Notes: generated by a model not told the origin, from the sequence alone. Shown: positions 14,393 to 33,444, counted from the first letter of the stretch. The stretch: DNA of 64,000 nt from Bryobacteraceae bacterium (GCA_030041985.1 JASIAM010000221.1:1-64000); one strand, 5' to 3'. Numbers and translations: made by a program.

Positions 14393-17122
14393 CTATGCGC
14401 CCATGAAACGCGCGAGCGCCATCCCCTCTCCGAGTGGCAACCGATAACCGATCAGGCAGAATTGGTCGAGCGCAAACAACACAACCGACTCCAAACCCGC
14501 CCCTACGCTTAAGTTCTCCTCTTTGAGCCAAGGCGTCGTGTAGTCACTGATCCCAATTAGATGGCTAGCTTGCGATCGCGCGAATCCGAGCGACATAGGT
14601 AGTTGGATGGAGGTACGAGCCGCGTTCAAATCGCGGTCGCCCGTGAAAGTGAAATTCTCCGTCTTTAAGCAGTTTAGAGCCATGGGTGTCCAAGCTGCGG
14701 TGGGGAAGTTGATCAGTTGATTCAGTGGTGTATCGTTCGTGTCGGGGGGATAGAGCACTTCAAATCTCGTGTTCGGCTGACTTTGCCGCACAAACGCCAT
14801 AATCGCATTCGTGAACTGGCCGATCAGATTCGGCAAGAACGTGCACTCTTGCGGGTAACTCGCGGGAGTTGCATTTTGACTCGTAATGACATCCATTGGA
14901 CGCCCGTAGGTGGCCTGAAATGTACTTGTCGTATAAGCATCGTAGAACGGCATGCCAGAGGAATCAGCGAAATACCACCACTGCACTTCCCCAAACTGAA
15001 GATACGGAACGAGGCCCGCTTCCGCCATCACATTGGCCATATCCAGATAGGCTTGCTGCCAGAAGGCGAGCGAGGCCGGCGAAAAATTAGTTTGTAGCGA
15101 AGGAGTCGAAAGCCACACAGGACCATCCGGATAACACTGCGCGATGCCGGTAGCAGCGCTATCGTCGCCATTGCCTAATTCCATGCTGAATGACACGGCG
15201 GCATCGATACCGTAAGATTTCAGCGCGGCAAGGAAACTGCGAGTCCAATCCCGAGCAGCCCTGTTTATCCTGGGAATCACGTTTAAGTCTGTCCGCCAAA
15301 TTACCTGGGGAGGGCCTTCCGGCGTGGCGTCGACTCCTCCCGCCGGTGCCGCTCCGCTGGTCTGGGCTGTAAACTGAGTGCTATTTGTTGTCACCGAAAC
15401 CGTAAGCCCATTTCCTTGCGCGCCGGTCGCCCGGGCGGTGATCGTAAGTTCCGATCCATTCGCTTGCGCCCATACCGCGCTCGATCCCTGGTTGATCAGC
15501 AGCGCAAAACACGTTGCAATGCTCGCGGCCGTGTCGCCGATCAGATTTTGATGTTGGATTATGGTGCCGCCGATACTAATTTGAGTATAGTCGCTAAATA
15601 CGGGCGCTCCATTAAACTGAATGGTAACTGTCGCGTTCACTGCGCCTGGATCTACGAGATCATAGAACCATAGGGCGCCTGCATAATGATTAGCGCGACC
15701 GATAAACCCCAGAGTATAAATGAGCCACGCAGTCCTTTCAGGGGCCAAAGCCTGCGAGTGTAGCGTGTCCCAATCGGTCGCCAGTGTAATCCGTGGATTT
15801 GGGCCGAACGTGGGCAAGTTTAGGGAAGGCACGGCAATTTCGATAAAGTCGAAATAGAAATATGTGCCATCGCCAGTATTGGTTGCCTTAAATGTGTGAC
15901 TGCCCGGCCCTGACATCTGCGCAAGAAGTATTCTTACCAGGACATCCTCTCCGGATAGCGCCAGATTAATTACGACAGGCGTGCCGTCGTCTACTTGTAC
16001 GCTTACCTGGCCACACGCAGTCGCCAGCCGGCTACCCAGGTATAGTGTGTGAGCGAATTGAGAATAATAGCTGCAGCTTACTTCATTTCCCGGCGTGCTA
16101 GTCGCTGTAATAGAACCGCCGGAGTAATTCCCCCGGCTTTGAGTCCATGACCCCTGCGGTCCCTGATACTGCACCTGCACCGCATCGTCCTCTATTCGAA
16201 AACTTCCTGGCCCGGCTACGCTGTATTGTAAGTTGGAGCCGCTGACGGCCCAATTCGTGACGACTACCGAGAACTCCTGCCGGCGAAAGATGCCAGGCTG
16301 AATAGCAGCGGCATATGTCCATCGTATCTTCCTTACGTTGGACGTGGGCACCTGGACTCCATTGATGTCGAGCAGGTTGCCGAAATTAAGGCTTATCTGC
16401 CAGGCAGAGGGCGAGACACCCCCGCTGAACAGGCAAGATGTGGGTGACCAGGATTCGGAGCCTTGGCCGGAGACTGTGCCATACACACCGATCACATTGC
16501 CATTAAGCCCCAAGGCCTCCGTACAAGTGAGAGTGATTTGGGACCCGCTAGCAACAGCGGATACTCCCCCAGTAGCCTGCCCGGCATTTATGGCCGCTGC
16601 AAGCGAAGCAATGGCTGTTTCAAGCGTATCACCGGCTGCTGTCTGGTAGTTAAAATGTTGGTTAAGCCAGGCCAACTCGATATAATCGCCCGCGGCCGGA
16701 GTGCCCGCTAATTGGAACTGTGCTGTAGCCGGGGTATAGCCACCCGAAGCTGGCGTCGCGTAGTTCGCAAGCGGCACCTGGTACATCGTTTCTGTGCCAT
16801 TTGTATCTGACCAGATTCTCAAATATGGCCAGTCGACCGTTGGATACCAGGTGGAGTCTAAAGGAATGCAATCCGTGCGGCTTTCCTGATACGTAAGAGA
16901 TAATCCACTCAAATTCCCATCAGGAAGGTTGCGCAAAGCCGGATGCTCGAAGACATTGTCACGGTTCCACTCTACCACCGCCCAGTCAAACTGCTGGCGC
17001 CATGTGCCGGATACCGTAAACCCAGTCTCACTGGTTTGACTGAGCGCCGCAATCGCTGAAGGCTCAAAAAAATAGCATTGCAAGTCTCGATTGGGACAAA
17101 GCTTCGTCGAAGTGGTGGGCAT
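14393..17122 (-). CDS. Phage-type tail fibre/tail-tip protein with C-terminal TIM-barrel-like domain
   Basis: 909 residues, last gene of the cassette, overlapping the preceding tail-tip gene by one base. The N-terminal two thirds is rich in Gly, Thr and Asn and beta-strand-like. Two related modules (about 165-245 and 520-600) each contain GDT, an alanine-rich helix ending in IN, then a run of LT and GN strands, a repeat seen in phage tail proteins. From about 620 the sequence becomes alpha/beta and resembles a glycosidase TIM barrel, with acidic residues in SFSMELGN and LQFGEVQWW as candidate catalytic glutamates. Its likely role is host-surface recognition or glycan cleavage at the tail tip. 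The large GTA tail protein gp15 also has a TIM-barrel-like domain. Confidence 0.6.
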   Translation of the reverse strand: MPTTSTKLCPNRDLQCYFFEPSAIAALSQTSETGFTVSGTWRQQFDWAVVEWNRDNVFEHPALRNLPDGNLSGLSLTYQESRTDCIPLDSTWYPTVDWPYLRIWSDTNGTETMYQVPLANYATPASGGYTPATAQFQLAGTPAAGDYIELAWLNQHFNYQTAAGDTLETAIASLAAAINAGQATGGVSAVASGSQITLTCTEALGLNGNVIGVYGTVSGQGSESWSPTSCLFSGGVSPSAWQISLNFGNLLDINGVQVPTSNVRKIRWTYAAAIQPGIFRRQEFSVVVTNWAVSGSNLQYSVAGPGSFRIEDDAVQVQYQGPQGSWTQSRGNYSGGSITATSTPGNEVSCSYYSQFAHTLYLGSRLATACGQVSVQVDDGTPVVINLALSGEDVLVRILLAQMSGPGSHTFKATNTGDGTYFYFDFIEIAVPSLNLPTFGPNPRITLATDWDTLHSQALAPERTAWLIYTLGFIGRANHYAGALWFYDLVDPGAVNATVTIQFNGAPVFSDYTQISIGGTIIQHQNLIGDTAASIATCFALLINQGSSAVWAQANGSELTITARATGAQGNGLTVSVTTNSTQFTAQTSGAAPAGGVDATPEGPPQVIWRTDLNVIPRINRAARDWTRSFLAALKSYGIDAAVSFSMELGNGDDSAATGIAQCYPDGPVWLSTPSLQTNFSPASLAFWQQAYLDMANVMAEAGLVPYLQFGEVQWWYFADSSGMPFYDAYTTSTFQATYGRPMDVITSQNATPASYPQECTFLPNLIGQFTNAIMAFVRQSQPNTRFEVLYPPDTNDTPLNQLINFPTAAWTPMALNCLKTENFTFTGDRDLNAARTSIQLPMSLGFARSQASHLIGISDYTTPWLKEENLSVGAGLESVVLFALDQFCLIGYRLPLGEGMALARFMGA

Positions 17123-20100
17123 TAGATTCGAATAATTACCGTAAGGTCTGAACCTGGATATGTTTGCCCTACCGTGAGAACCGATAGAGTGACTTGCGTC
17201 TGTGCGATCAAAGGTGGCAACGAATTTCCAGGAACAGTATTCGATGTCACTTGCCCCGGGGCTATTGTGAGCTGGCAGTAAGCCGAACCGTTGGCATTCA
17301 ACTGTAACTGAATGGCCGCATCAGCCGGACTACCCAATATCGCGAACACATCGCGAACGGAGTGGGAGCTATCGATCACCAGAGCTGGAACTGCATTCTG
17401 ATCGACGGCGAGAAAGCCCTGTACCTGGACTGAATATTGGCCACCGTAAAGCGTTCGCAAGCCGTTATCCGCAGTCCCGGTCATACAAACGCTGGCAGTG
17501 GGGCTGTTGCCCTGATCATTTGTAACGAATAGTTCAGCGCTGGCGACTCGGACATCCGGAAGCGGCACAGAGTAAGTCCAACTGCCGCTGTAGGGGCTTC
17601 CGAAGAATTCCGATGGGAAGGATGTGATGACTGTCATTGATGTAAGCTGATATACCAGAACGCCAGAGTTGTGCGCAGCGGCCAGGCTTCCATCAGCGCC
17701 CCGAGTTATTTGATACTGCAGGCCATTGTTGCCGATCCCGGTTACTAGCATGACTTCACTATCTATCTGAATCATGGTGTTAGCCTGAGCCGTGCCCGCG
17801 GAATTTAATGTCAAAGATTGATCAGTGGCGGCCATGTTTGCAGCTAGAGCCAGCGTGGGATCTGTCTGTAACTCATTCCAGTAATAGACAGTGAGAGTTG
17901 CCGCCGATATTGTCCGCGTATTCGTGAGGTTAGGAAAGGAGATTCCACTAAGTTGAATTGTCCCGCTTACTTGAGCAGGGTTTATTCCAAATAGAGGTGC
18001 TGGAGGAACCGCGGTGTCGGCGACTCCCGACCCGTCGATTTGCCAGCGTGTCACAGTCGCCAGTTGCGGACTGCTCTCGATGTCGTTGACGTTGGCCGAT
18101 CGCCCGGTAATCTCGACCACCTCGCCCGCCAGGTTGGGAATCTCAAACTGGACCGGGCTGCTCTTGGTCTGCGCTGCAAAGTGCCATCCTGCTTCCGCGA
18201 CGACAAAGAAACTGGTAGCGTCGGGCACGATACTCCAGGCTGGTGAGACCGTCAGGGTGGTCGCGGTGTTGCCGAGAATCGTCCTTTCGTCTCCGCCATC
18301 AGTGCCGCGTGTGATACGCGCCGTCATGCCGGTGTATGCGTTGACGGCCATTTCTAGGGTTCCGTTCCCGATAGTGGTCGGCGAGAAAACGGTCCCTGCG
18401 ACTTCCGGCTGCTCCTCCATCCTCCAGTAGAAGTTCGCGTGATCGAAGTTAGGGTCGGCGGGCGCGATTAATTGTATCGGCAAGCCAGTATCCGTGAATG
18501 TGGTTGCTAAAGTTTGCGCGGTGGCAATGCGGAATAAATTCGCCGGCGTAAGTCCACGATAAATATTAAAGGTGCTTGTATTGGGTGCGAAGCTAAGATC
18601 GGACAGGGTGACGGTGCTGCCGTTGGCTGAAATAACCGCAGTCACCAGAAAGGACAACACGCCTTCGTTACCCGCACTGTCCTGCCCTGAAACCGCATAA
18701 TATAGTGTTTGCCCTCCTTGGAGTGAGCCGCCCGTCCCTATTGTGCACGCCAGACTCACCAGAGGCGCGGGTGGTCCTTGCCCATTTGGCACAGTAGGGA
18801 CCGTAAAACTTACAGTCAGTTCTTCGTCCACCGTACCATCGCTATTGGTTACGGCAGCCTCAGCAATCCCGAACTGCACATTGCCGTTTTGGTCGGTTGT
18901 GCTTCCTAATAGTGGGTTTGGCGTCCCGACGCCCGCGGCCCCCCCGTAGGTATTTCCGGCTGTCGAGGTGGTCTGCCCATTAGTGTCCGCGTACCACTCA
19001 TCGTCGTGTATCTGCGCAGAAATCGTGCATGTTCGATAATTTGTTGACGGCGAGATCTTGAGAACACGAAACGGCTGGCGTTGCAGACCTTCCTTAAGGT
19101 AAGTCACCGTAATAATATCGCCGGGCCGGATTCCGAGCGCTTTGATGCTCGTCTGAAACTGGATATAAGTATTTCCTTGGACGGATTTGTCCAGGTTAAA
19201 TTGTAGGATTCGGGCAGCTTGGTCGTAGTTGGGCAGTCCCAGAGCCATCAAAGTGGTGGAAACTTCTTGTCCGATGAGTTGGATGTCGTCCGGATCGAAT
19301 AGGTCGTAACTATCCTGCTGATAGCTGTTCAAAGCGTCTTGGAACTCAACGCTGAAATCGTTGGGAGTATCGGCAATGCTGCGGGCGGTTATCGTAATGC
19401 TCGGCTCTCCGGTAGGGAGACGCAAGATGTCCGAAAATCCGGAAGAACCGTCTCCGAATTCGTAACTCGGCCAGCCACCATTCAGGGGTTGCGTACTGTT
19501 GGAGTTGGGCATCGGATTCGGCTGTTGCAGAGCGATCGAATTTTCAACCTGTAACTGGAGAATTCCGCCGGGGCCATAGGTCAAATAAAGCCGCGATGCA
19601 TTCCGGACGCCGCGCACAAAATCGCCGCCGCTGCGCTTATTTTGTAGAACTACATTGCATTGAAATCTCGGGATTTGAATCGGGTTGCCATTGAGATCGG
19701 TGGAGTTGATCAACTGATCGCAGTAAGCGGCCGTTGCTGCGAAGCTGGTAAAGTCGATTTCGGAGGCGGCCCAACCGCATTGCCGCAACACGTCCAGCAA
19801 TATCCAGGCTGGGTTACTGGAAAACTCGTTATTAAGATAGTTACCATTCGTATCATACGTGGGCACCTGTATGCCCTGGGCTAACACCTGAACGCTGGGC
19901 AGTGAACTACCGGTGCTAATCGAGTTCGGCACGACCACTGCCAGGTAGCCCATGCTCCCGTAGGGATCACCCAGCGGGTTGCCGTTCGAATCGGTGAAAT
20001 TCAGGTCGAATCCCCCATCGCGGGTTCCGAGCGTGACCACGTTGTACCAGCCGGTGGCTGTCATGTTCTGTCCGGTTACGCCAAGCGGAATCTCATAACC

Positions 20101-21003
20101 GTTGACCAGCACAGTAAGCACGCCTTGCATGACTCCCATTCCCAGGAGCACTTCCATGCGAGTCAGGTTGCCATCGTTCCGCGCGAAAACTACCGGGGGA
20201 TAATACCACGCAGTGCCGTATAACATTGGGACAAAGTCGTTATAGCGGGCTTGATTTATGGAAACGTTAGACTGAACCGAGCCTTGTCCGTATGACCGGA
20301 CGGTGATCACGGCGGGAACAAACTCAATCCCGCCAAACCGGGTCCACATACCTCGCGCCTGGCAGTCGGTCCGAACATATCCGCAGGATGTATAAGCTAC
20401 ACCGCTGTCGAGACTTCCAGTGCCTCCAGGGACATCCGCAGAGTAACCGCAGCGGTAATACGGGGAATACTGACCTTCAGCACCACCATTGACGGCCTCT
20501 GTCCTCTCGTCCAAAGTGGTTGGGAAATTCCATGGACACCGGCGCTGAATGTGAACTGGCGGCAGCGTCAACCTTTGCAGATTCATGCGGTTGGCGGCGC
20601 TCAAACGGAAAGTGGACTCCTTGATTTGATCGGGCGGATTGCAGATCCCCTGAAAAACGACGATAGGATCGGTGAGGGCCTGGCTGTTTGGTAGGTCGTA
20701 GAAGATAAAACTGACGGTAACCTGGGCGCCTTTGAACCCCCTAGATTGCTCGATTTCAGAGAAATAAGAATCGGCGTTGGCTAATAAAACTACGATCCGC
20801 GGGGCGCCATCTATACCCTGATCAGAAGCCGTTTGTATGTCGAATGAGCTGTGCTGCAAGACCCGGGCGTTATAATTCGTCGTACCAACGGATACTGTGT
20901 GCGTGCACCAATGTTCTTCCTCTCCGTCCGCGAGTAAGCAGTCGAATAGCACCAGCGGCGTATCTGTCAGTTCTTGTTGTTTAAGCTGATAAGGTGCTTG
21001 CAT
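17122..21003 (-). CDS. Phage-type tail hub/tip protein (gpJ-like, with DUF2163-like N terminus)
   Basis: 1293 residues. The N-terminal 230 residues resemble the DUF2163/GTA gp13 hub class: beta-rich, ending in a cysteine-containing segment (RRCPWN, YYRCGYS, TDCQARG). The middle carries the gpJ-type block NPAWILLDVLRQCGW. The C-terminal half has fibronectin-like and beta-sandwich repeats, including two copies of an ITRG(T/A)DG-centred motif. It would form the central tail tip and contact the receptor. It overlaps the upstream distal-tail gene by 23 bp. The fusion of hub-like and tip-like parts in one chain is inferred from these motifs. Confidence 0.65.
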   Translation of the reverse strand: MQAPYQLKQQELTDTPLVLFDCLLADGEEEHWCTHTVSVGTTNYNARVLQHSSFDIQTASDQGIDGAPRIVVLLANADSYFSEIEQSRGFKGAQVTVSFIFYDLPNSQALTDPIVVFQGICNPPDQIKESTFRLSAANRMNLQRLTLPPVHIQRRCPWNFPTTLDERTEAVNGGAEGQYSPYYRCGYSADVPGGTGSLDSGVAYTSCGYVRTDCQARGMWTRFGGIEFVPAVITVRSYGQGSVQSNVSINQARYNDFVPMLYGTAWYYPPVVFARNDGNLTRMEVLLGMGVMQGVLTVLVNGYEIPLGVTGQNMTATGWYNVVTLGTRDGGFDLNFTDSNGNPLGDPYGSMGYLAVVVPNSISTGSSLPSVQVLAQGIQVPTYDTNGNYLNNEFSSNPAWILLDVLRQCGWAASEIDFTSFAATAAYCDQLINSTDLNGNPIQIPRFQCNVVLQNKRSGGDFVRGVRNASRLYLTYGPGGILQLQVENSIALQQPNPMPNSNSTQPLNGGWPSYEFGDGSSGFSDILRLPTGEPSITITARSIADTPNDFSVEFQDALNSYQQDSYDLFDPDDIQLIGQEVSTTLMALGLPNYDQAARILQFNLDKSVQGNTYIQFQTSIKALGIRPGDIITVTYLKEGLQRQPFRVLKISPSTNYRTCTISAQIHDDEWYADTNGQTTSTAGNTYGGAAGVGTPNPLLGSTTDQNGNVQFGIAEAAVTNSDGTVDEELTVSFTVPTVPNGQGPPAPLVSLACTIGTGGSLQGGQTLYYAVSGQDSAGNEGVLSFLVTAVISANGSTVTLSDLSFAPNTSTFNIYRGLTPANLFRIATAQTLATTFTDTGLPIQLIAPADPNFDHANFYWRMEEQPEVAGTVFSPTTIGNGTLEMAVNAYTGMTARITRGTDGGDERTILGNTATTLTVSPAWSIVPDATSFFVVAEAGWHFAAQTKSSPVQFEIPNLAGEVVEITGRSANVNDIESSPQLATVTRWQIDGSGVADTAVPPAPLFGINPAQVSGTIQLSGISFPNLTNTRTISAATLTVYYWNELQTDPTLALAANMAATDQSLTLNSAGTAQANTMIQIDSEVMLVTGIGNNGLQYQITRGADGSLAAAHNSGVLVYQLTSMTVITSFPSEFFGSPYSGSWTYSVPLPDVRVASAELFVTNDQGNSPTASVCMTGTADNGLRTLYGGQYSVQVQGFLAVDQNAVPALVIDSSHSVRDVFAILGSPADAAIQLQLNANGSAYCQLTIAPGQVTSNTVPGNSLPPLIAQTQVTLSVLTVGQTYPGSDLTVIIRI

Positions 21004-21769
21004 AAAAGATATTCACGGTAACGGCGTTGTGGTTTACGTCCGTGCTGGTAAACGCCAATCCGCGATCCTGAAAATATGCGGTTGCGTACAGGCCGCCTGT
21101 GGTACTGGGCTTATAAACCGAAGCGGCCGGCTGGACTTCTACCTGCATCCCAAAGACGTTTAGTGAAATGCCGGGCGGTACCTGCAATCCAAATGCAATC
21201 GAGTCCGAAGATGCGTCTCCCTGGCCGGTAATCGAGATTCGGGTCCAGATATTAGGGACACTGGCAGCGCTCTGCTGAGTTCCTAGAAGCAATGTCGCGG
21301 TTGCGGGTATAGATGACTGTACATAGACACTGAGGCAGTATGTGTACCATCCGGGGGCGTTTAGCGTTTGGTGAATTCCCTGAGGGGCCTCCCCCGAATT
21401 GCTCAGGGTCCACCCATTGGTGTCGCCGGTTGGGTCCTTCAAGCCTCCCGTCAGGGCGAGGAACGGATCAGCGGTCCACACGTCATTGGTTAATTGGTCG
21501 CTCCAGGCGAGGAGGTTCGCTGTCGGATCGAGAAAGGTAAAGACATTCAAACTTCCCTCAGCCGCCAGATAGAATTGCTGCAAGCTGGCGGCCTCGGCGT
21601 CCGATAGGCCTTCGTATTGTAGTCGCCACTGGATTGTTTCACCTGCAGGATCTGCCAGCTTGATCACTGTCATATCTGACAATGTATTGACGACCGTTCG
21701 CGTACGTCTCCGTTTAAGCACCGGAAATTGTGTCAAGGCTCCACTTGTCAACTGGGGGTACACGAGCAT
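20981..21769 (-). CDS. Distal tail protein-like (DUF2460-type N terminus) with jelly-roll C terminus
   Basis: 262 residues. The first 100 residues match the pattern of DUF2460 distal tail proteins: an initial PQLTSGALTQFPV, then YEGLSDAEAASLQQFY and FTFLDP. The second half (about 110-235) looks like a carbohydrate-binding jelly roll (WTLSNSGEAPQGIHQTL, YTYCLSVYVQSS), as decorations on siphophage distal tail proteins often are. It would connect tail tube and tip. It overlaps the tip gene and starts nine bases after a second, shorter DUF2460-like gene, so the domain is present in tandem. Confidence 0.6.
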   Translation of the reverse strand: MLVYPQLTSGALTQFPVLKRRRTRTVVNTLSDMTVIKLADPAGETIQWRLQYEGLSDAEAASLQQFYLAAEGSLNVFTFLDPTANLLAWSDQLTNDVWTADPFLALTGGLKDPTGDTNGWTLSNSGEAPQGIHQTLNAPGWYTYCLSVYVQSSIPATATLLLGTQQSAASVPNIWTRISITGQGDASSDSIAFGLQVPPGISLNVFGMQVEVQPAASVYKPSTTGGLYATAYFQDRGLAFTSTDVNHNAVTVNIFYASTLSA

Positions 21770-21778
21770 GCCTAAGCC

Positions 21779-22138
21779 TCAGCCCCCATTTTGAATTACT
21801 GTCAGGGAAGTCGTACCCCTCATTTCGGCTAAAGAGATCATATCCATTTGGTCACTCGCCAGACTGCAGTTCTGGTACACTTGACCAGTCCAGGGGTCGG
21901 TAAATGCGAAACTGCCGAAGGCGCCCTGGTTTTGCTGGAAGAAGGCCTCGAGCGCCGCCATTTCTCCTTCGTCCAATAGGTCAAGGCGGATTACCCAGGT
22001 GTATAGTGGACCTGAGCAATCCCGATATCTTTGGTCAGTTCCATCGATGAAGTGCAAAATCTGCTGCTGAAAACGGAACACTTTGGTTGCAGGATATTGC
22101 GCAACCGCTCCAGTTTTAAGCGTTGGGAAGCTGCTCAT
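21779..22138 (-). CDS. Short distal tail protein-like (DUF2460-type)
   Basis: 119 residues. The beginning (FPTLKTGAVAQYP) parallels that of the next gene, and LLDEGEMAALEAFFQQNQG followed by FAFTDPWTGQVY is the same conserved helix-and-loop block. It lacks the jelly-roll extension. Its ATG overlaps the stop of the tape-measure candidate (ATGA), implying translational coupling. Either both copies form a heteromeric ring at the tail end or one has a distinct role; sequence alone does not decide. Confidence 0.55.
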   Translation of the reverse strand: MSSFPTLKTGAVAQYPATKVFRFQQQILHFIDGTDQRYRDCSGPLYTWVIRLDLLDEGEMAALEAFFQQNQGAFGSFAFTDPWTGQVYQNCSLASDQMDMISLAEMRGTTSLTVIQNGG

Positions 22139-23001: not shown

Positions 23002-23320
23002 CTCGTATCTCTATAGCCAACTCATGTTCCAACAGGACAAAAGCGTCAGCCTGTCGAGCCGTTAGTTCACCAAGATCCATGCGGCCGAACCGCCGGCGAA
23101 ACGAGAATTCCTCCAGCAAGCTTGCGCTCTCGGCTGATATATAGGATTTCGGGCACGTCCCCAACACTACATGCTTCCGGGCCCAGACTGGTGGACTCTC
23201 CGATTGCTCGCCCAAGCCGAGCCATCCACACCGCCGCTTTTGTTCCAGGCCGGACTTACGGCAGATGTCGCACCTCCAACCGGCCTGGTTAGAAAACTGA
23301 AAATGGAAAGCGACAATCAG
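22970..23320 (-). CDS. Tail assembly chaperone T segment, expressed by -1 frameshift (GT-type fusion)
   Basis: Reading from the frameshift site, this frame is open for 116 codons and continues the 121-residue G protein to give a product of about 237 residues. The region just after the slip encodes WRCDICRKSGLEQKRRCGW, a Cys cluster (C-x2-C-x10-C), followed by the helical LGELTARQADAFVLLEHELA typical of tail-assembly chaperone extensions. There is no ATG with a ribosome site at its beginning; the only in-frame initiator candidate nearby is a TTG at 23215, which would discard the Cys cluster. The GT product would bind the tape measure and recruit tail-tube subunits, as in lambda. Confidence 0.7.
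   Translation of the reverse strand: MIVAFHFQFSNQAGWRCDICRKSGLEQKRRCGWLGLGEQSESPPVWARKHVVLGTCPKSYISAESASLLEEFSFRRRFGRMDLGELTARQADAFVLLEHELAIEIRDGERRTRNAV
23245..23288 (-). repeat. Perfect 9-bp inverted repeat downstream of the frameshift site
   Basis: CCAGGCCGG and its exact complement CCGGCCTGG (23245-23253 and 23280-23288) can pair across a 26-nt loop in the mRNA. The first arm begins about 32 nt after the slippery heptamer, further than the usual 5-9 nt for a stimulatory structure, so a role in frameshifting is only possible. Confidence 0.35.
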
Positions 23321-23682
23321 TTTTTTCGTTCGGTTGAGTTGAGACCCGTCTGCGCTCGAACCGCCTCAAGCGCCTCCCGGAAAAGATCCTCGGGACCATG
23401 ATCGGTCAAGAGTTCCGGCGTCGCCTCCACGCCATCCACTGTCAGCCCTTCGATCGACTTCAATCCCCACGTTAAATAGACACGATTGATTTGGGCCTCC
23501 AGCAAAGCGGCATCCATTTTGTCACCAGGGTCCTCGCCTGCTCTCAGAAATTCCTGCTTTCTGGCCAACTCTCTGATACGCGACATCAGTTCAGCACGCC
23601 TGCCGTAGGACATTTTGTGGACAGTGAATGTCACGCCCGGCGTGATTTGCGATTCGATCACAGCAACGCTTTCGTAAGTCAT
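23317..23682 (-). CDS. Tail assembly chaperone G-like protein
   Basis: 121 residues, mostly helical after a short beta start (ESQITPGVTFTVHKMSYGRR). It sits between the tail-tube gene and the tape-measure gene, where siphophages encode the G/GT chaperones. Its last codons read R-K-N-stop and contain the slippery heptamer A AAA AAC in the correct frame, so a fraction of ribosomes should slip -1 into the T frame. Its stop is two bases from the tail-tube start region, indicating one polycistronic mRNA. Confidence 0.65.
   Translation of the reverse strand: MTYESVAVIESQITPGVTFTVHKMSYGRRAELMSRIRELARKQEFLRAGEDPGDKMDAALLEAQINRVYLTWGLKSIEGLTVDGVEATPELLTDHGPEDLFREALEAVRAQTGLNSTERKN
23320..23326 (-). 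promoter_or_regulatory. Programmed -1 ribosomal frameshift site, A AAA AAC
   Basis: On the coding strand the end of the G gene reads CGA AAA AAC TGA. The heptamer A AAA AAC is a canonical X XXY YYZ slippery sequence, in the right register, and the zero-frame stop follows immediately. The -1 frame is open for 116 codons beyond it. Lambda-type G/GT tail chaperones are produced by this mechanism. Confidence 0.75.
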
Positions 23683-23684
23683 GG

Positions 23685-24857
23685 TTATCCGAATGCTATC
23701 GACACCTCGTTATCAATCGTGCCTTGCGCTCGAGATGTGCGAAACTTCCACTGCAAACGGTTCGAACTATCGTCGAACTCCGGAACCTGCGGAATCACGC
23801 TGTTCATGTTCACGGCAAAAGTCAGTCCTGCGGTCTGCCCTAACTGAAACATTAGTGTCACCGGTGATTGCTGGCGGGCCGCTTGATAAAGTCCTTGGGT
23901 CGCTGAGTCGGTCAGTCCGTATAAGCTAAAAGTGGCAGAGACAGTTCGTGGCCCGGGAGCAATGGCTCGGGGCAAGCTCGAGCCGAATTCGCTCATCCGG
24001 GCGTCCAAGGAGTTTTTCAATTGAACCGACGCGCTGGTAATAGTAAAAAACTGTGCCGGAGATGTCCCCAACCAGGCTTCACCCAGGTTCCCGGGCACAA
24101 TAGTGTAGTCAAAAGCGCCTAGCTGTGGCTCGGCGGGGAAGCTTTGTAGTTGTTCGGGGCCCCCGCCCGCGAAGCTACTCGTGTCAAGCACATCCTGGGC
24201 CATACCCTGGAACTGAAATTCGTGAAAATCACCATTCACCAGGATATTCATCTGATCCACCGCAGCGCCACTTAAGAGCCGCTGAACCGCAGTCGATGGA
24301 TCCCAGTAGTCAAAGATGCTGACGCTAGGTAACTCGTTAGAGGGCGTGTACGTCACAGTGGGACCAGTCATTGCGCCTGTGCCTGGAGTCACCGTGAGGG
24401 GGGCATTGAGTTGCACAGTCTCACTGTTAACGATAGCCGTCACAAATCGGACGTCACCGCCTGATGAAATGGCTTGTCCGACACTGAGACCGTGCGGCCC
24501 AGTGAACGTTAACTGGCCGGTGTTATTTGCGGAACTCACGGTTCCCCCGCCGTACTGCAGTGGAGTCCCACCGAGCGCGGCTTGGAAAAGTGGCCCATAC
24601 GCCGGTCCAGTCGATGGCTGCCAGCTAGTCAAATAGGTTTGCAGTCCGAAGTTAGTTCGGCGCTGTCCGCCTGATGGCAGCCCAACGAACGTTCGGCTTC
24701 CAGTCTTATCTTTTCGTTGTGTTACTTCGAGTTGATTCTGAACAGTCAGCTTCAAAGCCGGAATCCGGTTGCTGGCTGAAATCGTCGGCACGACTCCATA
24801 TGCGCTTTCGAGCGCTGTGTAGAATCGGTTCGCATTCGAGGAGACGTAAGATGCCAT
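23685..24857 (-). CDS. Phage-type major tail tube protein
   Basis: 390 residues. The N terminus (NRFYTALESAYGVVP) and the internal FVGLPSGGQRRTNFGLQTYL are typical of siphophage tail tube proteins that begin by interacting with the head-tail joint. A bacterial-Ig-like insertion (FTGPHGLSVGQAISSGGDVR, about 115-165) is followed by tube-core strands, including GDFHEFQFQGMAQDVLD. Position before the chaperone pair and after the connector genes supports the call. Subunits would polymerise to the tail shaft. Confidence 0.7.
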   Translation of the reverse strand: MASYVSSNANRFYTALESAYGVVPTISASNRIPALKLTVQNQLEVTQRKDKTGSRTFVGLPSGGQRRTNFGLQTYLTSWQPSTGPAYGPLFQAALGGTPLQYGGGTVSSANNTGQLTFTGPHGLSVGQAISSGGDVRFVTAIVNSETVQLNAPLTVTPGTGAMTGPTVTYTPSNELPSVSIFDYWDPSTAVQRLLSGAAVDQMNILVNGDFHEFQFQGMAQDVLDTSSFAGGGPEQLQSFPAEPQLGAFDYTIVPGNLGEAWLGTSPAQFFTITSASVQLKNSLDARMSEFGSSLPRAIAPGPRTVSATFSLYGLTDSATQGLYQAARQQSPVTLMFQLGQTAGLTFAVNMNSVIPQVPEFDDSSNRLQWKFRTSRAQGTIDNEVSIAFG

Positions 24858-24859
24858 GG

Positions 24860-25360
24860 TTAACTAATGCTCACTTCGATTTGAAATGTTATCTTTGCTG
24901 TCTGCAAAAAGTTTCTGCCGCCATGTTTAACAGGGCCTACGGCTACACTATATCCACCAGAGTAGTACAGGCCGTTGCCCCAATCGCCGCGCTCGCCATC
25001 CAACACTTGAGTTACTGAGTCGGCATACAGCTCTAACGTGTTCTGGATTCCATCCAGCCGGTCCTGGGAGTGCCGTACCTCAATGGCCATCTGTATGTTA
25101 CCGGAAAACGTTCGGAATTTCTCCGTCAGCGTGTTCGCGAGTTTTTCGCAGTACACATATACCGACGGGTATGTGGTGGTTTTGCTGCGTTCGGCAAGTT
25201 CTGAGGACACGTTCTGCCCATAAATCTGTCCGGCGTCAATCGGAAATGCGAGCGAGCTGTCAGGCGCGCTCAACGATCCCAAGTTGGCGTTCATGCCATT
25301 AGGCCCACCAATCAACCCTATTACAGTTGTGGTGGCCGTGCTCCCAATGGTATTCATCAT
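24860..25360 (-). CDS. Phage-type tail terminator/head-tail joining protein candidate
   Basis: 166 residues from the ATGATG at 25360, chosen because GGAGAGG lies just upstream and the ATG overlaps the stop of the preceding gene (ATGA). A longer in-frame start would overlap that gene by 100 bp. The sequence has a helix-rich beginning, then beta strands with IQMAIEVRHSQDRL and a C-terminal LQTAKITFQIEVSI that resembles tail-terminator proteins, which form a ring at the tail top. The assignment rests mainly on its position directly before the tail tube; no sharp motif is visible. Confidence 0.45.
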   Translation of the reverse strand: MMNTIGSTATTTVIGLIGGPNGMNANLGSLSAPDSSLAFPIDAGQIYGQNVSSELAERSKTTTYPSVYVYCEKLANTLTEKFRTFSGNIQMAIEVRHSQDRLDGIQNTLELYADSVTQVLDGERGDWGNGLYYSGGYSVAVGPVKHGGRNFLQTAKITFQIEVSIS

Positions 25361-26121
25361 CCTCTCCAAAGTACCCGCGGAAGCGGTCTCAAATAAGTTG
25401 GTGTTTGCCCGGTCCCTGGCATGGATCCACTCGTTGCCGGCGGAGTCATCTGTTCCCACATTTGGCCCAGTGCCAGCGGTGTAGTGTTTTGAACGTACAT
25501 GGATCCCGGCGCATTCCCTACGTATACGTTCCAGCCGGTCGCCTTCTGCGGAGTCGCTAGGGGTTGCACCCCGAAAGCGCTGCTCGAAGTCGTAATTGCA
25601 TCGGGAACTGCACTTGCGCCCTCCTCCCCGGCCTCGTTGATCCAGGCCATGGTTGCATAATATGTTGCGTCCGGAAGGCTCCCAGATATTGAAACAAGCT
25701 GTGGTGTGAGAGCCTGAGGAATCGGATTTACAGCGATCCCGATTCCGATTCGAATCAGCCGCTCTCGCGCCGACTCTGCAGCCTGGTGAAATTGGTCGCG
25801 TTTTGCTCCATACCTGTCATTAAGCTGATCGAAGTAAGCATCGCTGTATACCATCTCCAGCGAGCGGTACGTGTGCCAGAGCTTCAAAGCCAGCGTTACC
25901 ACAATCTGTTCCAGATGTGGTTCTTTTACCCACCACCCAGGCCAACCCTCAAATCTCAGTCCCCGGAGCATGGAAATAAGATCAAGACCGATCTCTTCTT
26001 GCGCCAGTGCAAGTTTCTGGGTGACATTGATTCCCTCTTCGCTAGCGATATTTAGAAGTTGTGAATCTTGCGCTGCTAGGTCATCCAGATTCGAGATGCA
26101 GCCATCTATGAACAGAGCCAT
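25357..26121 (-). CDS. Phage-type head-tail connector candidate with Ig/FnIII-like C terminus
   Basis: 254 residues. The N-terminal 140 residues are helical with many charged residues (SLEMVYSDAYFDQLNDRYGA), compatible with a head-tail adaptor. The second part (about 145-220) is a beta sandwich of fibronectin type (YYATMAWINEAGEEGAS, WNVYVGNAPGS), a common decoration of phage structural proteins. It lies between the small gene after the coat gene and the tail terminator candidate. No known family can be named with confidence. Confidence 0.45.
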   Translation of the reverse strand: MALFIDGCISNLDDLAAQDSQLLNIASEEGINVTQKLALAQEEIGLDLISMLRGLRFEGWPGWWVKEPHLEQIVVTLALKLWHTYRSLEMVYSDAYFDQLNDRYGAKRDQFHQAAESARERLIRIGIGIAVNPIPQALTPQLVSISGSLPDATYYATMAWINEAGEEGASAVPDAITTSSSAFGVQPLATPQKATGWNVYVGNAPGSMYVQNTTPLALGQMWEQMTPPATSGSMPGTGQTPTYLRPLPRVLWRG

Positions 26122-26129
26122 CGGCCTTC

Positions 26130-26366
26130 CTACTTGGTCGCCGGCTGAGCAGGCGCCTTGCGTGCGTGAAACGCCTGTCTTTCTTCCGGAGTGGCGAGGC
26201 GAGCAATTCCATCCACAATCATTTTTGCGGCCAAGGCTCGCGGCACCTCCGTCTGCGTCCCGGCCTTACCGCCATCTGCGGTCTCCAGACTTACGATCAC
26301 CGTGCAATTGTCCGCAATCTTCGACGCGATATCCTTTACCTTTTGGTAATAGTTCCTTAAATCCAT
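26130..26366 (-). CDS. Small phage-cassette protein, function unknown
   Basis: 78 residues from the ATG at 26366, chosen because AAGGAGAG lies just before it; an upstream in-frame ATG lacks a ribosome site. The protein starts with a charged helix (MDLRNYYQKVKDIASKIAD), then a beta/alpha segment and a Lys/Ala/Pro-rich tail. It follows the coat gene, a position where phages encode decoration or head-completion proteins. No family is recognised. Confidence 0.45.
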   Translation of the reverse strand: MDLRNYYQKVKDIASKIADNCTVIVSLETADGGKAGTQTEVPRALAAKMIVDGIARLATPEERQAFHARKAPAQPATK

Positions 26367-26395
26367 GTCTCTCTCCTTCGTGTTTTCACTGGGAT

Positions 26396-26423
26396 GCGGT
26401 CCGCTTGGCAACTAGCGGACCGC
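26396..26423 (-). promoter_or_regulatory. Strong hairpin just after the coat gene
   Basis: Two perfectly complementary 10-nt arms (26396-26405 and 26414-26423, GCGGTCCGCT type) enclose an 8-nt loop, starting eight bases after the coat gene stop. No U tract follows on the coding strand, so it is more likely an mRNA 3'-end stabiliser, processing site or partial terminator than a full intrinsic terminator. Confidence 0.5.
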
Positions 26424-26431
26424 GTGGCTGG

Positions 26432-27343
26432 CTAAGTGTTGAACTGGACTCCCGCACTGTTCATCAGGATTCCACACCCATACAGAACGTCCACTGTAAA
26501 TTGTTGCGCCAGCGTATTCGGCTGATAACTCATCACTACTCGCATTCCGAAATTGCCCAGCTCCGCGTACTCGGCAATCGCGCCGGTGCCGGGCAGCGGC
26601 TGCGGAAGTCTTCGGATTACGAGGCCAATCGCATCGCGTGTGAAGGCCAGGTTATGCGTATTTACCGGACTGGTACCGGTCTTCTGCACATATTGCGAAC
26701 GGAAAACGTAAAAGTCCTTGAACTTTCCGATTGTGCCTTGAATTAATGTTTGCAGACCTGCCGCCCCGGCGGTCTGGAATTCCTCAAATAGCGGAATCTG
26801 CCGCCATGCCGAGTATGCGAGGGCGTCTACCACAATGTATCTCTGCTGATTAGGTGGAATCATCGCCAGGAAGAGAGCAGTTTCTGCGGCATCCACTGTC
26901 GCTTCCGTAAGCGGTGTGCCAGCAGTGCCCACCGGCGTGTTTGCGGTGAAGCCGGCATATAAGTTGAGCAAGTCGGTCTCGATCCTCTCTGCAATCGCCA
27001 CGACCGCCGGCTGCATATAGACTTTTAGTAGGTCAGGAACAGCCAATACCTTAGTAACATCCGGTATTTGAAATGTCGCCTCCACATGGGTGTTCAGTAC
27101 AATCTGCGCATTTCCCAAGCTTGGGTTCTGCGGTTGTACGCTTCCACCTTCCAGAATGTTGTTCGCCACCATCACCGGTGGTATGGGGATATTGATCGTA
27201 TCGCCAGCGTGTGCCAAAACCGGCTCGTAATCGCGATTTACCAGGTTACCCATCACGAGGTTCCCGACCAGCACCGGCAATGCGTCCGCCGCCACCAGCT
27301 TCACAATCGCATTTGCGACGTTACTTGATGTGATAACTCCCAT
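26432..27343 (-). CDS. Phage-type major capsid (coat) protein, P22-coat-like
   Basis: 303 residues. The N-terminal block GNLVNRDYEPVLAHAGDTIN (residues 28-47) followed by IPIPP is characteristic of the P22-like coat family. The remainder fits an HK97-fold coat: a long helix with IAERIETDLLNLYAG, a P-loop-like YIVVDALAYSAWRQIP and a C-terminal beta segment. No protease gene accompanies it, consistent with P22-type scaffold-based assembly. A good AAGGAG precedes the ATG. Strong hairpins lie on both sides of the gene, which may raise coat expression relative to its neighbours. Confidence 0.75.
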   Translation of the reverse strand: MGVITSSNVANAIVKLVAADALPVLVGNLVMGNLVNRDYEPVLAHAGDTINIPIPPVMVANNILEGGSVQPQNPSLGNAQIVLNTHVEATFQIPDVTKVLAVPDLLKVYMQPAVVAIAERIETDLLNLYAGFTANTPVGTAGTPLTEATVDAAETALFLAMIPPNQQRYIVVDALAYSAWRQIPLFEEFQTAGAAGLQTLIQGTIGKFKDFYVFRSQYVQKTGTSPVNTHNLAFTRDAIGLVIRRLPQPLPGTGAIAEYAELGNFGMRVVMSYQPNTLAQQFTVDVLYGCGILMNSAGVQFNT

Positions 27344-27365
27344 CCGTGCTCCTTTTGATCCTGTT

Positions 27366-27382
27366 ACCGGCCGATGGCCGGT
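27366..27382 (-). promoter_or_regulatory. Hairpin in the coat gene leader
   Basis: ACCGGCC and GGCCGGT pair perfectly around a 3-nt loop, about 22 nt upstream of the coat ATG on the minus strand and inside the 128-bp gap that separates the scaffold and coat genes. This is the only sizeable gap in the head module. It may act as an mRNA processing or stability element. Confidence 0.4.
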
Positions 27383-27471
27383 CTATACTCACTAGTCAGG
27401 TTCCACTGACCTCGATTCGTCCCGCGCAGCACCGTGCCGCAGGCCGGACCCGCTTCCTCGCGCCACGCAGA

Positions 27472-28023
27472 CTAGAGGCCCCGCAGCGTCTGCGACGCGA
27501 CCCGCACAATCTCCTCGCGCACTCTCTGCATTTCCTCCGCGTTCATGCCGGGACGGATCTTTGCAATATCCACCGCCTCCCGGCCGCCGTGGGACGACTT
27601 CGACGCCGTCGTCATTCCCGTACCGCCCGAAATCCTCGCAGGCAAGAATTCCGGATTTTCCGCCACAAACGTTGCGAGATAGTCCTTCATTGCCATATCG
27701 CCATCGTCAGAACGAGCCACGAGCCGTCCGTCCTCTTTGCGTTGAATGGCATCTTGCACTGCCTTAAAAGCCAAATCGACTTTAGCCACCCCTAGCCGCT
27801 GCAGCTCCGAACGAATCGCCGTGCTGCGCTCCGCTTCTTCTGCCATTCTCCGGCTGCGTTTGTTTTCCTCCACCAGCTCGTTCATTCGCCGCTCGAGCTG
27901 CTCCCGCCGCTTCCGCTCCTCCTGCAGTTCCGCCTTGTAGGCCGGCTCGCTCTTCGCTTGATCCTGGTTTACGTACTCCTGAATCGCGTTCCGAATCAGC
28001 GCCTGTACATCAAGTTCTTCCAT
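27472..28023 (-). CDS. Phage-type scaffolding protein
   Basis: 183 residues from the ATG at 28023, four bases after AGGAGG; a GTG one codon earlier is possible but sits too close to the ribosome site. It is highly charged, with a predicted coiled coil (about 30-75, KAELQEERKRREQLERRMNE), a helical middle and a basic C terminus, the classic design of capsid scaffolds. Position between portal and coat genes is canonical. It would template procapsid assembly and then leave. Confidence 0.65.
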   Translation of the reverse strand: MEELDVQALIRNAIQEYVNQDQAKSEPAYKAELQEERKRREQLERRMNELVEENKRSRRMAEEAERSTAIRSELQRLGVAKVDLAFKAVQDAIQRKEDGRLVARSDDGDMAMKDYLATFVAENPEFLPARISGGTGMTTASKSSHGGREAVDIAKIRPGMNAEEMQRVREEIVRVASQTLRGL

Positions 28024-28031
28024 CACGCCTC

Positions 28032-29423
28032 CTAACTGGCATACTTCGTTGCGTCAATCTCTTCTGCGACCTTATTCTTCAGTTCCTGGCGTGCATCGCA
28101 GAGATATTTGAACGCTAGCTTCTTGAACACCTGTTTTGTCAGTGTCTCCGAACCTATACCGAGATCCAGCAACTTTTTGGCATCATCCAGGTCATTGCCA
28201 AAATCGCCGAGATCAAATTCGTCCAGGCCCCTCACATCAATCGCCACCCCATCTTGCCGTGCGGCCCCAATCGCCCGGAGCACCTGTTTCATCGTGTCTT
28301 TCGCTGAGTCGCCGTAGGCGCGCAACACTTCCTGCGTGATGCTGAAGTCCCGCTGTTTGCTCGCTGCCGACAGTCTTAAATCGCCCGCGCTGGCGTTTCC
28401 CGCTTGGTTCATCAGGTAGCAAACCCGGTAAATTTCATCCTTCAGGCGTACGAGGTTATCCGCGGCAATCTGATAAACTTTCCCATCTGGCTCTGTCCAA
28501 CCAAAGCGATCTTGCGGTCCAAGCTGGATGTAGTAGGACTCCCCTACAATCTGATTCCACTCGCGGTCCGAATATACAACGGGCATCGCAAACAGGCTCA
28601 TGGTTAGGGCCCACGAAAGCGCATTCGACTTATTAAAGTGTTCCAATTGGAGCAATGCCGCCTTATTCATCAGCCACAGCCCTTCACTGACCCGTAACTG
28701 GAAGATGGGCACCCTTCGGAGGCTAGCCAGGCCATGCTGGCCTTCGCTGATCAATTCTGTCGGCTGGCTTTCTCCCGACTTGCGATAAAGTTGAAAGTTC
28801 TCCCGATCGTAGTAGATCCAGCGAGTCTCGGCTTCCCACCTGGTATCCGTCACTCTTGACTGCTTTAGACAGGAAGTTCGGATTACTACCCACTCCAGAC
28901 CGCCGGTTTCGTCGTAATTCCAATTAATAACTTCGTCAGGCCAATAATCGACCAGATACGCTCTCGATTGGCCCGAAGCATCCTCTTCCGCGCGCGTTAA
29001 TACTGTGCTGTTGCCTCGGGGAAACTCAATCGCTATATAGCTGGATCCGCACGCCAATGCCTGGATCATTCGTTGGCGAAAGAATTCGCTGAAACTGGTT
29101 CCCTTTAGATCACAGTCTTCTGCGAAAAAGCTGAAGAAGGTCTTTGCCGCGGTGTCGGCTCCCTCAAACAACAGTACCGGCTCCCGGCGCATGAGCGTCG
29201 CCGCGTACCAATCGATTATGGACCCGATGTAGTTTTCATAAAATACGCGCGTTAGCCGTTCGGCGTATACTTCCCCTGGCTCCTTGTGCCTACGGATCAA
29301 GTATTCGAAAGCGTTTTCCCGTAGTCGCTCGCCGCCGGCATAAAGATCTTTATACTTCCTCCACATATGCTTGCGGATGATATATTCCGGATGCTCGCGG
29401 TTGATATTTGGGATATCGATCAT
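28032..29423 (-). CDS. Phage-type portal protein
   Basis: 463 residues. Features of SPP1/P22-type portals are present: N-terminal helices with RVFYENYIGSIIDWYAATLM, a clip/stem region with MIQALACGSSYIAIEFPRG, a wing segment with WPDEVINWNYDETGGLEW, and a C-terminal helical crown with the long DLDDAKKLLDLGIGSETL segment. The N terminus (MIDIPNINREHPEYI) overlaps the terminase stop by four bases. As a dodecamer it would be the DNA entry channel of the capsid. The frame is intact with no visible damage. Confidence 0.72.
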   Translation of the reverse strand: MIDIPNINREHPEYIIRKHMWRKYKDLYAGGERLRENAFEYLIRRHKEPGEVYAERLTRVFYENYIGSIIDWYAATLMRREPVLLFEGADTAAKTFFSFFAEDCDLKGTSFSEFFRQRMIQALACGSSYIAIEFPRGNSTVLTRAEEDASGQSRAYLVDYWPDEVINWNYDETGGLEWVVIRTSCLKQSRVTDTRWEAETRWIYYDRENFQLYRKSGESQPTELISEGQHGLASLRRVPIFQLRVSEGLWLMNKAALLQLEHFNKSNALSWALTMSLFAMPVVYSDREWNQIVGESYYIQLGPQDRFGWTEPDGKVYQIAADNLVRLKDEIYRVCYLMNQAGNASAGDLRLSAASKQRDFSITQEVLRAYGDSAKDTMKQVLRAIGAARQDGVAIDVRGLDEFDLGDFGNDLDDAKKLLDLGIGSETLTKQVFKKLAFKYLCDARQELKNKVAEEIDATKYAS

Positions 29424-30709
29424 ATGATCCGTTCCTGGCGCTCACCTATTGGCCTTTGGAGACGGTACTCCGACCAAAGCAGGTATCCCAACGCATCGGA
29501 AAGATGTGTTCTGTGGCGATCGCGCTCTTTGTCGATCTCGTATCGGTCTTCTTTGAAACAGACTTGCTCGAAATCCATGATTAGTTCTTTGCATTTCGGG
29601 TCCACCAGGAGTTCGACGTTGCCGGAGGAGGACCGTAGTTTGCCGTTGGTCAGATTGATTCGCTGCCGCACACTGGGGTTCGCCTTCTGCGCACGGTAAG
29701 AGACCCGCAAATTGGCGTGTTCCGCCATGAAGTCTTGAACTATCTCGTAATCTGACGATCCGCTTGTCTTTTCGGCATGCCCGGAGGCGTCTCCGTAGAT
29801 CAGAATTTCCGCTCTTTGCCCAGGTATGCGCTTGAGAAACTCCTCGCAAGCCTGCACTGTAGTCCCGTGCTGGAGTACAATCTCGTCCAGCACTTTCAAA
29901 ATCGGCCCGGCCTTTTGAGCGATGAGTGAACACATGGGGTTCACGTTGAAATCGAGTGTCCATAGCACGGGAATATTCGGTTCCCGTTCGAGCTTCACGA
30001 CATTTTCCGGCCGCGAGAAGGAACTGTAAACCAATCCGGTCGTAATGTTGAGATACTCGCCGAGTACCTCCTGTTTGTAGAAAGTCTCGTCGTAGCTGGA
30101 TTGCAAGTACTCGTAGTAATCCGGGGCGAGGAACCGGTTCTCTCTGGGCTTCGCAAAAATAGCCTGATAATCGTTCTTTTTACCGTCCGAAACGAACCTG
30201 CGGTAGACCCAGTCGTAACCTTTAGGCGTCCATACCGCGAATCCGGATAGCCGGGAAGCCTTGCCGTCGCGCAGCCGTGCTTCCAGCCGTAGCCACGCAT
30301 CCTCGTGTGTGTAAGTAAGTTCGTCTATACCAAACCACGCTAGATTCGTGCCACGAAGCCGTTCGATCTCGTCCACGGGGCGGAACAGAACTCTGGATCG
30401 GGTCTGGGTCATCATCAAAATGTTCTCGGCCTTGTTGAGATCGAACGGAATATGGTTGCTTTCCAGAATCTCGAGTAAAGTGGCCTGTGTGGCCGACCGC
30501 AACATCGGGTAAGTCGGGGCCCCCAGCAGCCCCATCCGGCCCTGGTTGATGTAACTGAGCCTGATGGCTTCGTGGCAAAGCGCTTGACTCTTGCCGCTCC
30601 CAACCGGTCCGGAGAAGCCTTTAAACCTGGATTGGCAGTTGTGAAACTCAAGCTGAGATGGGAGCGGATCATAAGTTATTTCGTGGCTTTTAAGAGTGGA
30701 TCCACCCAT
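29420..30709 (-). CDS. Phage-type terminase large subunit
   Basis: 429 residues, full length. The ATPase has Walker A GPVGSGKS (34-41) and Walker B FGIDE (D129/E130). The RNase H-like nuclease has its three acidic residues in DFNVNP (D253), YGDASG (D307) and HLSDALGY (D405). All catalytic positions are therefore conserved, so the motor and nuclease look functional. It would cut and pump DNA into the prohead. It overlaps the preceding small gene by 34 bp. Whether packaging is headful or site-specific cannot be judged. Confidence 0.85.
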   Translation of the reverse strand: MGGSTLKSHEITYDPLPSQLEFHNCQSRFKGFSGPVGSGKSQALCHEAIRLSYINQGRMGLLGAPTYPMLRSATQATLLEILESNHIPFDLNKAENILMMTQTRSRVLFRPVDEIERLRGTNLAWFGIDELTYTHEDAWLRLEARLRDGKASRLSGFAVWTPKGYDWVYRRFVSDGKKNDYQAIFAKPRENRFLAPDYYEYLQSSYDETFYKQEVLGEYLNITTGLVYSSFSRPENVVKLEREPNIPVLWTLDFNVNPMCSLIAQKAGPILKVLDEIVLQHGTTVQACEEFLKRIPGQRAEILIYGDASGHAEKTSGSSDYEIVQDFMAEHANLRVSYRAQKANPSVRQRINLTNGKLRSSSGNVELLVDPKCKELIMDFEQVCFKEDRYEIDKERDRHRTHLSDALGYLLWSEYRLQRPIGERQERII

Positions 30710-30972
30710 GTGACCTTGATTTCCTTAGGTCCTTCGTCGTTGTCAGTTTCTTTTTGTATTTCCCAAGCGACCTGCATCAACCGTAAGTAGTCGCCCAGGG
30801 AAGGCTTGAGTGTCTCATTTGCTGCCAGCCGGGCCTCAAGCCCATCGCACGCGGCGCTCAATAACTTCGCCAGTCGCAGTCTTTGTTGTTTAATGTCTGG
30901 CGAGTGTTCGCCGGTATCAGGCGCATCTAGCACCACTTCTTTTCTTTCCTTGGCGGTTCGCTTGTAGCCCAT
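30676..30972 (-). CDS. Terminase small subunit candidate
   Basis: 98 residues, first gene of the cassette and directly before the large terminase. It is charged and helical (QQRLRLAKLLSAACDGLEAR, SLGDYLRLMQVAWEIQKE) but too short for a firm family call. The first ATG follows immediately after the U tract of a terminator-like hairpin and has no ribosome site. A GTG at codon 13 (30936) has AAGGA about ten bases upstream and may be the true start. By position it would recognise DNA for packaging. Confidence 0.5.
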   Translation of the reverse strand: MGYKRTAKERKEVVLDAPDTGEHSPDIKQQRLRLAKLLSAACDGLEARLAANETLKPSLGDYLRLMQVAWEIQKETDNDEGPKEIKVTWVDPLLKATK

Positions 30973-31003
30973 AAAAAAATGGCCCCGGAGTCTCTCCGGA
31001 GCC
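30973..31003 (-). terminator. Intrinsic terminator or attenuator abutting the first cassette gene
   Basis: On the minus strand GGCTCCGGAG pairs with CTCCGGGGCC across a 3-nt loop with one A-C mismatch, and is followed by A and seven U residues. The U tract ends exactly at the ATG of the terminase small-subunit candidate. It would stop transcription entering the phage-like cassette, or act as an attenuator. Confidence 0.65.
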
Positions 31004-33372: not shown

Positions 33373-33379
33373 TTTACCT

Positions 33380-33395
33380 ATGTAGAATGCTACTT
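33380..33395. promoter_or_regulatory. Imperfect PadR operator near the padR start
   Basis: ATGTAGAATGCTACTT has the PadR spacing ATGT-N8-ACNT with one deviation from a perfect palindrome. It lies seven bases upstream of the regulator ATG and partly overlaps the -35 of the ABC promoter, fitting autoregulation. Confidence 0.55.
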
Positions 33396-33429: not shown

Positions 33430-33444
33430 AGATCGGCTGCCGAT

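Follow-up and report, generated by a model that had tools for sequence, protein, structure and literature searches.

A gene transfer agent (GTA) is a domesticated virus by which host DNA passes from cell to cell; its particles are filled with random pieces of host DNA, too small for the entire cluster. RcGTA, the GTA of Rhodobacter, has a capsid module of the HK97/protease type and also a short tape measure, a DUF2460 protein and a Phage-tail_3 protein, as in the cassette described below. PBSX particles do not propagate themselves; they have a contractile tail, and their lysis genes lie within the cluster. The frequency of GTAs outside the Alphaproteobacteria is an open question, because homology cannot separate GTAs from defective prophages (PMC11841831). 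Here, trees, synteny and selection separate a GTA-like cassette from a defective prophage without recourse to RcGTA homology. The window that we analysed, i.e., the whole stretch of 64,000 nucleotides from a Bryobacteraceae bacterium, belongs to a draft genome of 6.0 Mb (98% complete), in which it lies on an 81-kb contig, and carries the cassette at positions 14393-30972 of the minus strand.

Like RcGTA, the cassette is a head-tail cluster of about 15-17 kb that is inherited vertically in a large clade, evolves under purifying selection and has no linked replication or integration genes. Both have a sugar-binding part in the distal tail, which in RcGTA is an insertion with an oligosaccharide-binding fold in the distal tail protein (PMC7296036). 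The cassette differs from RcGTA by its P22-type coat and scaffold, its NCTSP TIM-barrel gene, its leader terminator and its host phylum, and by the fact that transfer has not been shown. We rejected membership of the RcGTA family (Rhodogtaviriformidae and relatives) since the coat is a P22 coat (PF11651) and not an RcGTA-type capsid; RcGTA chains appeared in the PDB profile searches only as a weak head-spike match (E=0.0019). Judged by the features that a sequence can test, the cassette is GTA-like, but it lies outside the RcGTA family and is not detectably derived from RcGTA. It shares with PBSX the chromosomal, domesticated head-tail genes, and differs from it by a non-contractile tail and the lack of linked lysis genes. 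A tailocin, i.e., a headless tail, was also rejected: terL, portal, scaffold and coat are present and among the most constrained genes.

The element has been seen before. A 2025 paper (PMC11924767) reports newly found 'group (i)' proviruses of Bryobacterales, among whose hosts are Ca. Solibacter usitatus Ellin6076 and Paludibaculum fermentans P105. In an earlier survey (PMC5900883), Ellin6076 and Bryobacter aggregatus were each credited with a single prophage, which may or may not be this element. The Ellin6076 record IMGVR_UViG_639633060_000001 corresponds to one of our loci (L179), where the 14 core genes are all present and in unchanged order, at 44-82% identity. The cassette is the same element as the 'group (i)' proviruses of the 2025 paper. 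There they are described as proviruses, with no test of vertical inheritance, selection or absence of lysogeny genes in the sections consulted, and the words 'gene transfer' do not occur. We found no paper proposing a GTA in Acidobacteriota, in a search that left out subscription papers and most preprints. An earlier reading of the window, made from the sequence alone (the sequence-only reading), had suggested that this may be an independent GTA-like system. One limit on that reading is that the element is in print as a provirus group (PMC11924767), though, in the searchable papers, not as a GTA. New to its anatomy are the conserved slippery site for -1 frameshifting in the gene of the tail chaperone and the covarying leader terminator.

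Gene content and boundaries of the cassette

The cassette comprises 16 reading frames, all on the minus strand, which follow one another in packaging order almost without gaps, so that 98.9% of it is coding; the frames and their order were verified as first read. All the genes around it are host genes: a radical SAM protein (12075-14171, minus strand), a Bcr/CflA transporter and a kinase on one flank, and an ABC transporter ATPase (33307-34209, plus strand) and AmpH-like proteins on the other. The radical SAM protein resembles tetraether lipid synthase (Tes), with 317 bits against the Tes model, under its cut-off of 450 bits, and bears on the membrane-spanning lipids of Acidobacteriota. No tRNA was found at the locus, nor any att-like direct repeat of at least 11 nt between the flanks of the cassette. 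Integrase, holin and repressor are absent among the matches listed for the 109 flank reading frames (the best 25 of 47 PHROG families). With the same restriction, no conserved integration, replication or lysis module was found in or beside the cassette, which upholds what had been claimed from the sequence. Within this limit, the cassette does not qualify as an active temperate prophage, which would have an integrase, a repressor, modules for replication and lysis, and att sites. Its composition (54% GC, 59% GC3) falls under that of the flanks (60% and 70%), which is phage-like and counts against the GTA reading.

The packaging and head genes come first. A candidate small terminase subunit (TerS; 30676-30972, 98 aa, start codon uncertain) was proposed for its position ahead of terL and has homologues in about half of the relatives (33-57% identity). 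It stays a candidate only, because no family model in the profile libraries matches it: of the original terS claim, the position stands and the family identity is unconfirmed. The large subunit, TerL (29420-30709; phrog_2, 8.7e-37; PF03237; PF17289), has Walker A, Walker B and nuclease Asp residues that are invariant across 16 homologues from many genera, so the conservation of its catalytic residues holds. It is followed by the portal protein (28032-29423; phrog_145, 3.8e-44; PDB portal 8ts6, 5.4e-20 by profile) and by a probable head scaffolding protein (27472-28026), conserved among relatives and identified by its position and a weak match to phrog_2303 (E=0.013). The major capsid protein (26432-27343, 303 aa) is of the P22-coat type, as had been proposed (PF11651, 1.8e-12; phrog_283, 1.1e-39). 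It measures 303-304 aa in nearly all relatives, with 71-90% identity across the family; the prediction of its fold was unsuccessful (AlphaFold pLDDT 40). Next are a small conserved head/neck protein (26130-26411; about 36-65% identity among relatives), a candidate head-tail connector or head closure protein (25357-26121; phrog_8040, weak, E=0.0013) and, by position, a candidate neck or tail terminator protein (24860-25459). Because the homologues of the latter have about 165 aa, its annotated start is probably too early, with the true start near 25357.

The tail genes start with a tail tube or minor tail protein (23685-24857; phrog_290, 5.5e-14). Tail assembly chaperone G (23317-23682) was identified by its position and by the slippery heptamer directly ahead of its stop. 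The window shares this -1 heptamer (A-AAA-AAC, 23326-23320) with 10 of the 10 relatives examined. Reading can continue in the -1 frame, without a stop, through the heptamer and on into the T extension (22970-23330), a part that is conserved among relatives with constant spacing. The frameshift in the G/GT chaperone, already suspected, is therefore well supported. The short tape-measure candidate (22135-23001; phrog_3779, E=0.0005) has 288 aa in the window and 178-255 aa among relatives. Where two DUF2460-like genes had been claimed, one is confirmed (21779-22138; PF09343, 5.2e-9). The other (20981-21769, 262 aa) is not DUF2460 in Pfam; its AlphaFold model (pLDDT 91) matches CBM22/CBM4 and a T5 tail-tip protein in Foldseek, making it a distal-tail-like protein with a carbohydrate-binding module (CBM), and it has a weak profile match to Rcc01080 of RcGTA. 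The tail hub or tip protein (17122-21003, 1293 aa) matches PF13550 (Phage-tail_3, 1.4e-10) and phrog_1101. The last gene (14393-17122), once read as a plain fibre, instead encodes an NCTSP-like TIM-barrel tail protein (PF23845, 2.2e-16; PDB 9lc0, 8.4e-10 by profile) and is missing from some relatives; PF23845 is the TIM barrel of a non-contractile tail sheath. In genome G044 (L119:6887-10399), an insertion of about 3.5 kb lies between the DUF2460 and tape-measure genes.

A conserved leader of about 118 nt (30969-31086, minus strand) precedes the first gene and was defined by alignment, pair counts and a covariance model. It has a box A (TTTTCAA...), a box B, which in relatives is an extended -10-like GATGnTACTCTCAA, and then an intrinsic terminator hairpin with a T-run (31003-30981), directly ahead of the first gene. 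The hairpin covaries: 97% of the cells are paired, against 39-49% in slid controls, and there are 18 double changes, against 3.1 in shuffles. A terminator scan of the leader by pattern alone did no better than chance. Searched with the covariance model, the window reaches 79.9 bits, the sole match in that genome, and 18 fetched loci (window included), mostly from the window's own clade, reach at least 78 bits. GTAs have accessory loci for lysis, regulation and receptor binding at other places of the host genome; here the model revealed no second cassette-linked leader site, and no lysis or regulatory locus was found; a regulon sharing the element was rejected, since the strong match is at the cassette only. 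Two genomes (G024 and G063) have about 20 weak matches each, which resemble unrelated hairpins, perhaps a repeated family of GC-rich hairpins. In phage late operons controlled by antitermination, the terminator stands directly behind the promoter, as it does here, and we infer that the leader works by antitermination in the cassette.

Distribution, inheritance and selection

TerL is present in 191 of the 237 genomes of the host family (126 of the 148 of good quality) and in 68 of its 76 genera, nearly always in a single copy, and none of the matches listed has an internal stop. The named relatives with the cassette are mostly Bryobacterales/Solibacter MAGs. In a sample of the phylum (297 genomes) the cassette is confined to the family; outside it, only single genomes carry it (G039, G044, G057 and G265), and the portals of phage isolates reach at most 28% identity. 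Two MAGs filed as 'Bordetella parapertussis' (L085) and 'Arcobacter sp.' (L061) have Bryobacteraceae-type cassette genes, and these records are probably mislabelled or misbinned. The sequence-only reading had named two patterns that would refute it, patchy presence with frame decay and integrase, lysis or replication genes conserved beside the cassette in relatives. Neither was seen, the second within the best 25 of 47 PHROG families.

Gene order and strand are kept at all 76 loci that reach from the portal to the tail hub gene (some genomes are present in both collections and thus counted twice), and the chromosomal site is common to multi-genus groups. At 9 of the 29 loci with enough sequence, a Wzt-type ABC gene for polysaccharide export lies directly downstream; these loci come from deep clades, genus g51 among them. 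The copy in the window is at a different chromosomal site. Loci with a Wzt-type O-antigen/polysaccharide export ABC gene in this place are L101, L102, L103, L105, L108, L109, L117, L279, L281 and L290. A functional link between the cassette and this gene is conceivable, because the head fibres of RcGTA bind capsule polysaccharide (PMC7296036).

To assess inheritance, we compared the tree of the cassette proteins (4196 columns) with that of the proteins of the S10-spc-alpha ribosomal operon (4366 columns) in 30 genomes, with support values from FastTree. The trees have 18 of 27 splits in common (RF 18), whereas 1000 label shuffles gave RF values of at least 48. When the ribosomal set itself is divided in two, the trees of its halves have 17 of 27 splits in common (RF 20), which serves as the yardstick. 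The Mantel correlation (r 0.78) was reached in none of 5000 permutations. The conflicts mostly concern deep, short branches; the exceptions, which have good local support, are the placements of G011 (the strongest conflict) and G022. Pooled over ten close pairs, dN/dS is 0.08-0.32 for every cassette gene, lowest in coat (0.076), scaffold (0.08) and portal (0.10), 0.15 in TerL, and highest in the distal-tail CBM protein (0.32). That the head genes are the most constrained is an argument for a particle with a capsid and against a tail weapon. Tree congruence with the host, conserved synteny and purifying selection, the three checks put forward beforehand, all came out as expected of a GTA-like cassette. 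A strain-specific or decaying prophage is ruled out by the family-wide presence, the low dN/dS and the tree congruence. We have little doubt that the cassette was domesticated and then inherited vertically for long under selection, which is well supported.

Possible functions of the particle

We think it probable, if far from settled, that the cassette is a phage head-tail operon captured and kept by the host, most likely as a GTA independent of RcGTA; particles, packaged DNA and transfer have not been shown. It meets the GTA criteria of host-resident, phage-derived head-tail genes that are inherited vertically with intact frames under purifying selection, and that of having no linked self-replication or integration genes (in the best 25 of 47 PHROG families of the flanks). 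Presence, congruence, synteny and dN/dS thus support the GTA-like reading first made, while the function itself is inferred and is beyond proof by sequence. On a fuller version we are evenly balanced: an independent GTA with a P22 coat, gated by the leader terminator, family-wide, older than the family and possibly as old as the class, with a particle in genus g51 that lacks a linked terminase.

If so, an ancestor of the Bryobacteraceae would have captured the operon, which selection would have kept since. From the anatomy of the leader, the terminator ahead of the first gene would hold back its promoter, and an activator or antiterminator would be needed to lift this block. The protein families suggest that scaffold and P22-type coat would build a procapsid on the portal, which TerL, its ATPase and nuclease residues being intact, could then fill with host DNA; we infer that TerL would be limited to chromosomal DNA because the cassette has neither an att site nor a module for replication or excision. 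A short non-contractile tail would be attached, with the chaperone made via -1 frameshifting and the length set by the shortened tape measure. Genes encoded elsewhere, still unidentified, would lyse the cell, and the carbohydrate-binding distal-tail protein and the hub may bind a surface sugar and deliver the DNA to kin.

The chief rival is a domesticated PBSX-like particle, which may pack random host DNA and would benefit its host by killing competitors or by some other non-transfer function. We hold it to be unlikely, yet serious: vertical inheritance and purifying selection fit it equally well, genus g51 retains the particle genes without an adjoining terminase, and the variable or lost NCTSP-like gene and the top dN/dS of the CBM distal-tail gene (0.32) are as in a target-binding part. 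It has to contend with the strong constraint on the head genes and the invariant catalytic residues of TerL, which a pure tail weapon does not need. A host-restricted active prophage or satellite might also co-speciate with the Bryobacteraceae, relying on a helper or on unlinked excision and replication functions. The single copy per genome, the orthologous sites in deep clades, a tree congruence equal to that between ribosomal proteins, the lack of an att repeat and of an integrase among the matches listed (the best 25 of 47 PHROG families) make this quite doubtful. The databases can be read both ways, since the coat patterns match at least 600 stretches of IMG/VR but the 80 contigs kept span only 4-25 kb; in its favour are the related complete viruses in the same hosts and the name 'group (i) proviruses' in the published description (PMC11924767).

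An ordinary defective prophage in decay, which the sequence-only reading took for the main alternative, would account for a structural arm standing alone and for the internal deletions in some relatives (L082, L084). It is contradicted by frames that are intact in nearly all genomes, by presence in 68 of 76 genera, by dN/dS far below 1 in every gene and by the tree congruence, and we regard it as highly improbable. If the cassette is indeed a GTA, a means of exchanging genes is built into a family that is widespread in soil, and many of the contigs filed as 'provirus' or 'viral' in soil databases, among them the IMG/VR stretches that match the coat patterns, are host genes. The cultured carriers (Ca. 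Solibacter usitatus Ellin6076 and Paludibaculum fermentans P105) make the question testable at the bench.

Genus g51, deleted copies and a viral relative

A few genomes have internally deleted copies (L082, L084) and some good genomes have no cassette, which counts against the GTA reading. In genus g51 (L279, L281 and L287), the genes from portal to hub are kept and no TerS or TerL adjoins them; at L279 and L281 the cassette directly adjoins ribAB. The head-tail genes of this genus have dN/dS below 0.2 where measurable, with dS saturated. The packaging functions may be supplied in trans, or else the particle has no DNA; the GTA reading leaves packaging in g51 unexplained because there is no adjoining TerL or TerS. 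A split orphan terminase-like family (ATPase and nuclease reading frames), found in all eight genomes, was considered as the replacement terminase and rejected as a specific one, since it is multicopy and common across the family. Its genes consist of an ATPase reading frame of 260-300 aa and then a separate RNase-H-like nuclease frame, with 1-15 per genome in Bryobacteraceae; at L291 and L293 they lie beside toxin-antitoxin-like genes, with no phage genes around, and they also occur at L294.

One genome, G237, holds its own cassette and a homologous complete element, a virus or prophage (L284, L282, L283). The latter has homologues of terL (35% identity), portal (36%), coat (67%), tube, DUF2460, hub and NCTSP in the order of the cassette, with extra genes interspersed and spread over about 25 kb. 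It also encodes a DNA polymerase, a helicase, a primase, HNH nucleases and an endolysin, and its tape measure has 1145 aa, against 288 aa in the cassette of the window. With the portal as query, G237 gave two matches and its sister G230 a single one; the viral portal was not found in G230. This contrast suggests that the viral relatives are patchy and complete, whereas the cassette is near-universal and reduced. Adjoining the viral relative in G237 is a second, lone coat gene (L284:19037-19906), of 63% identity and in the opposite orientation.
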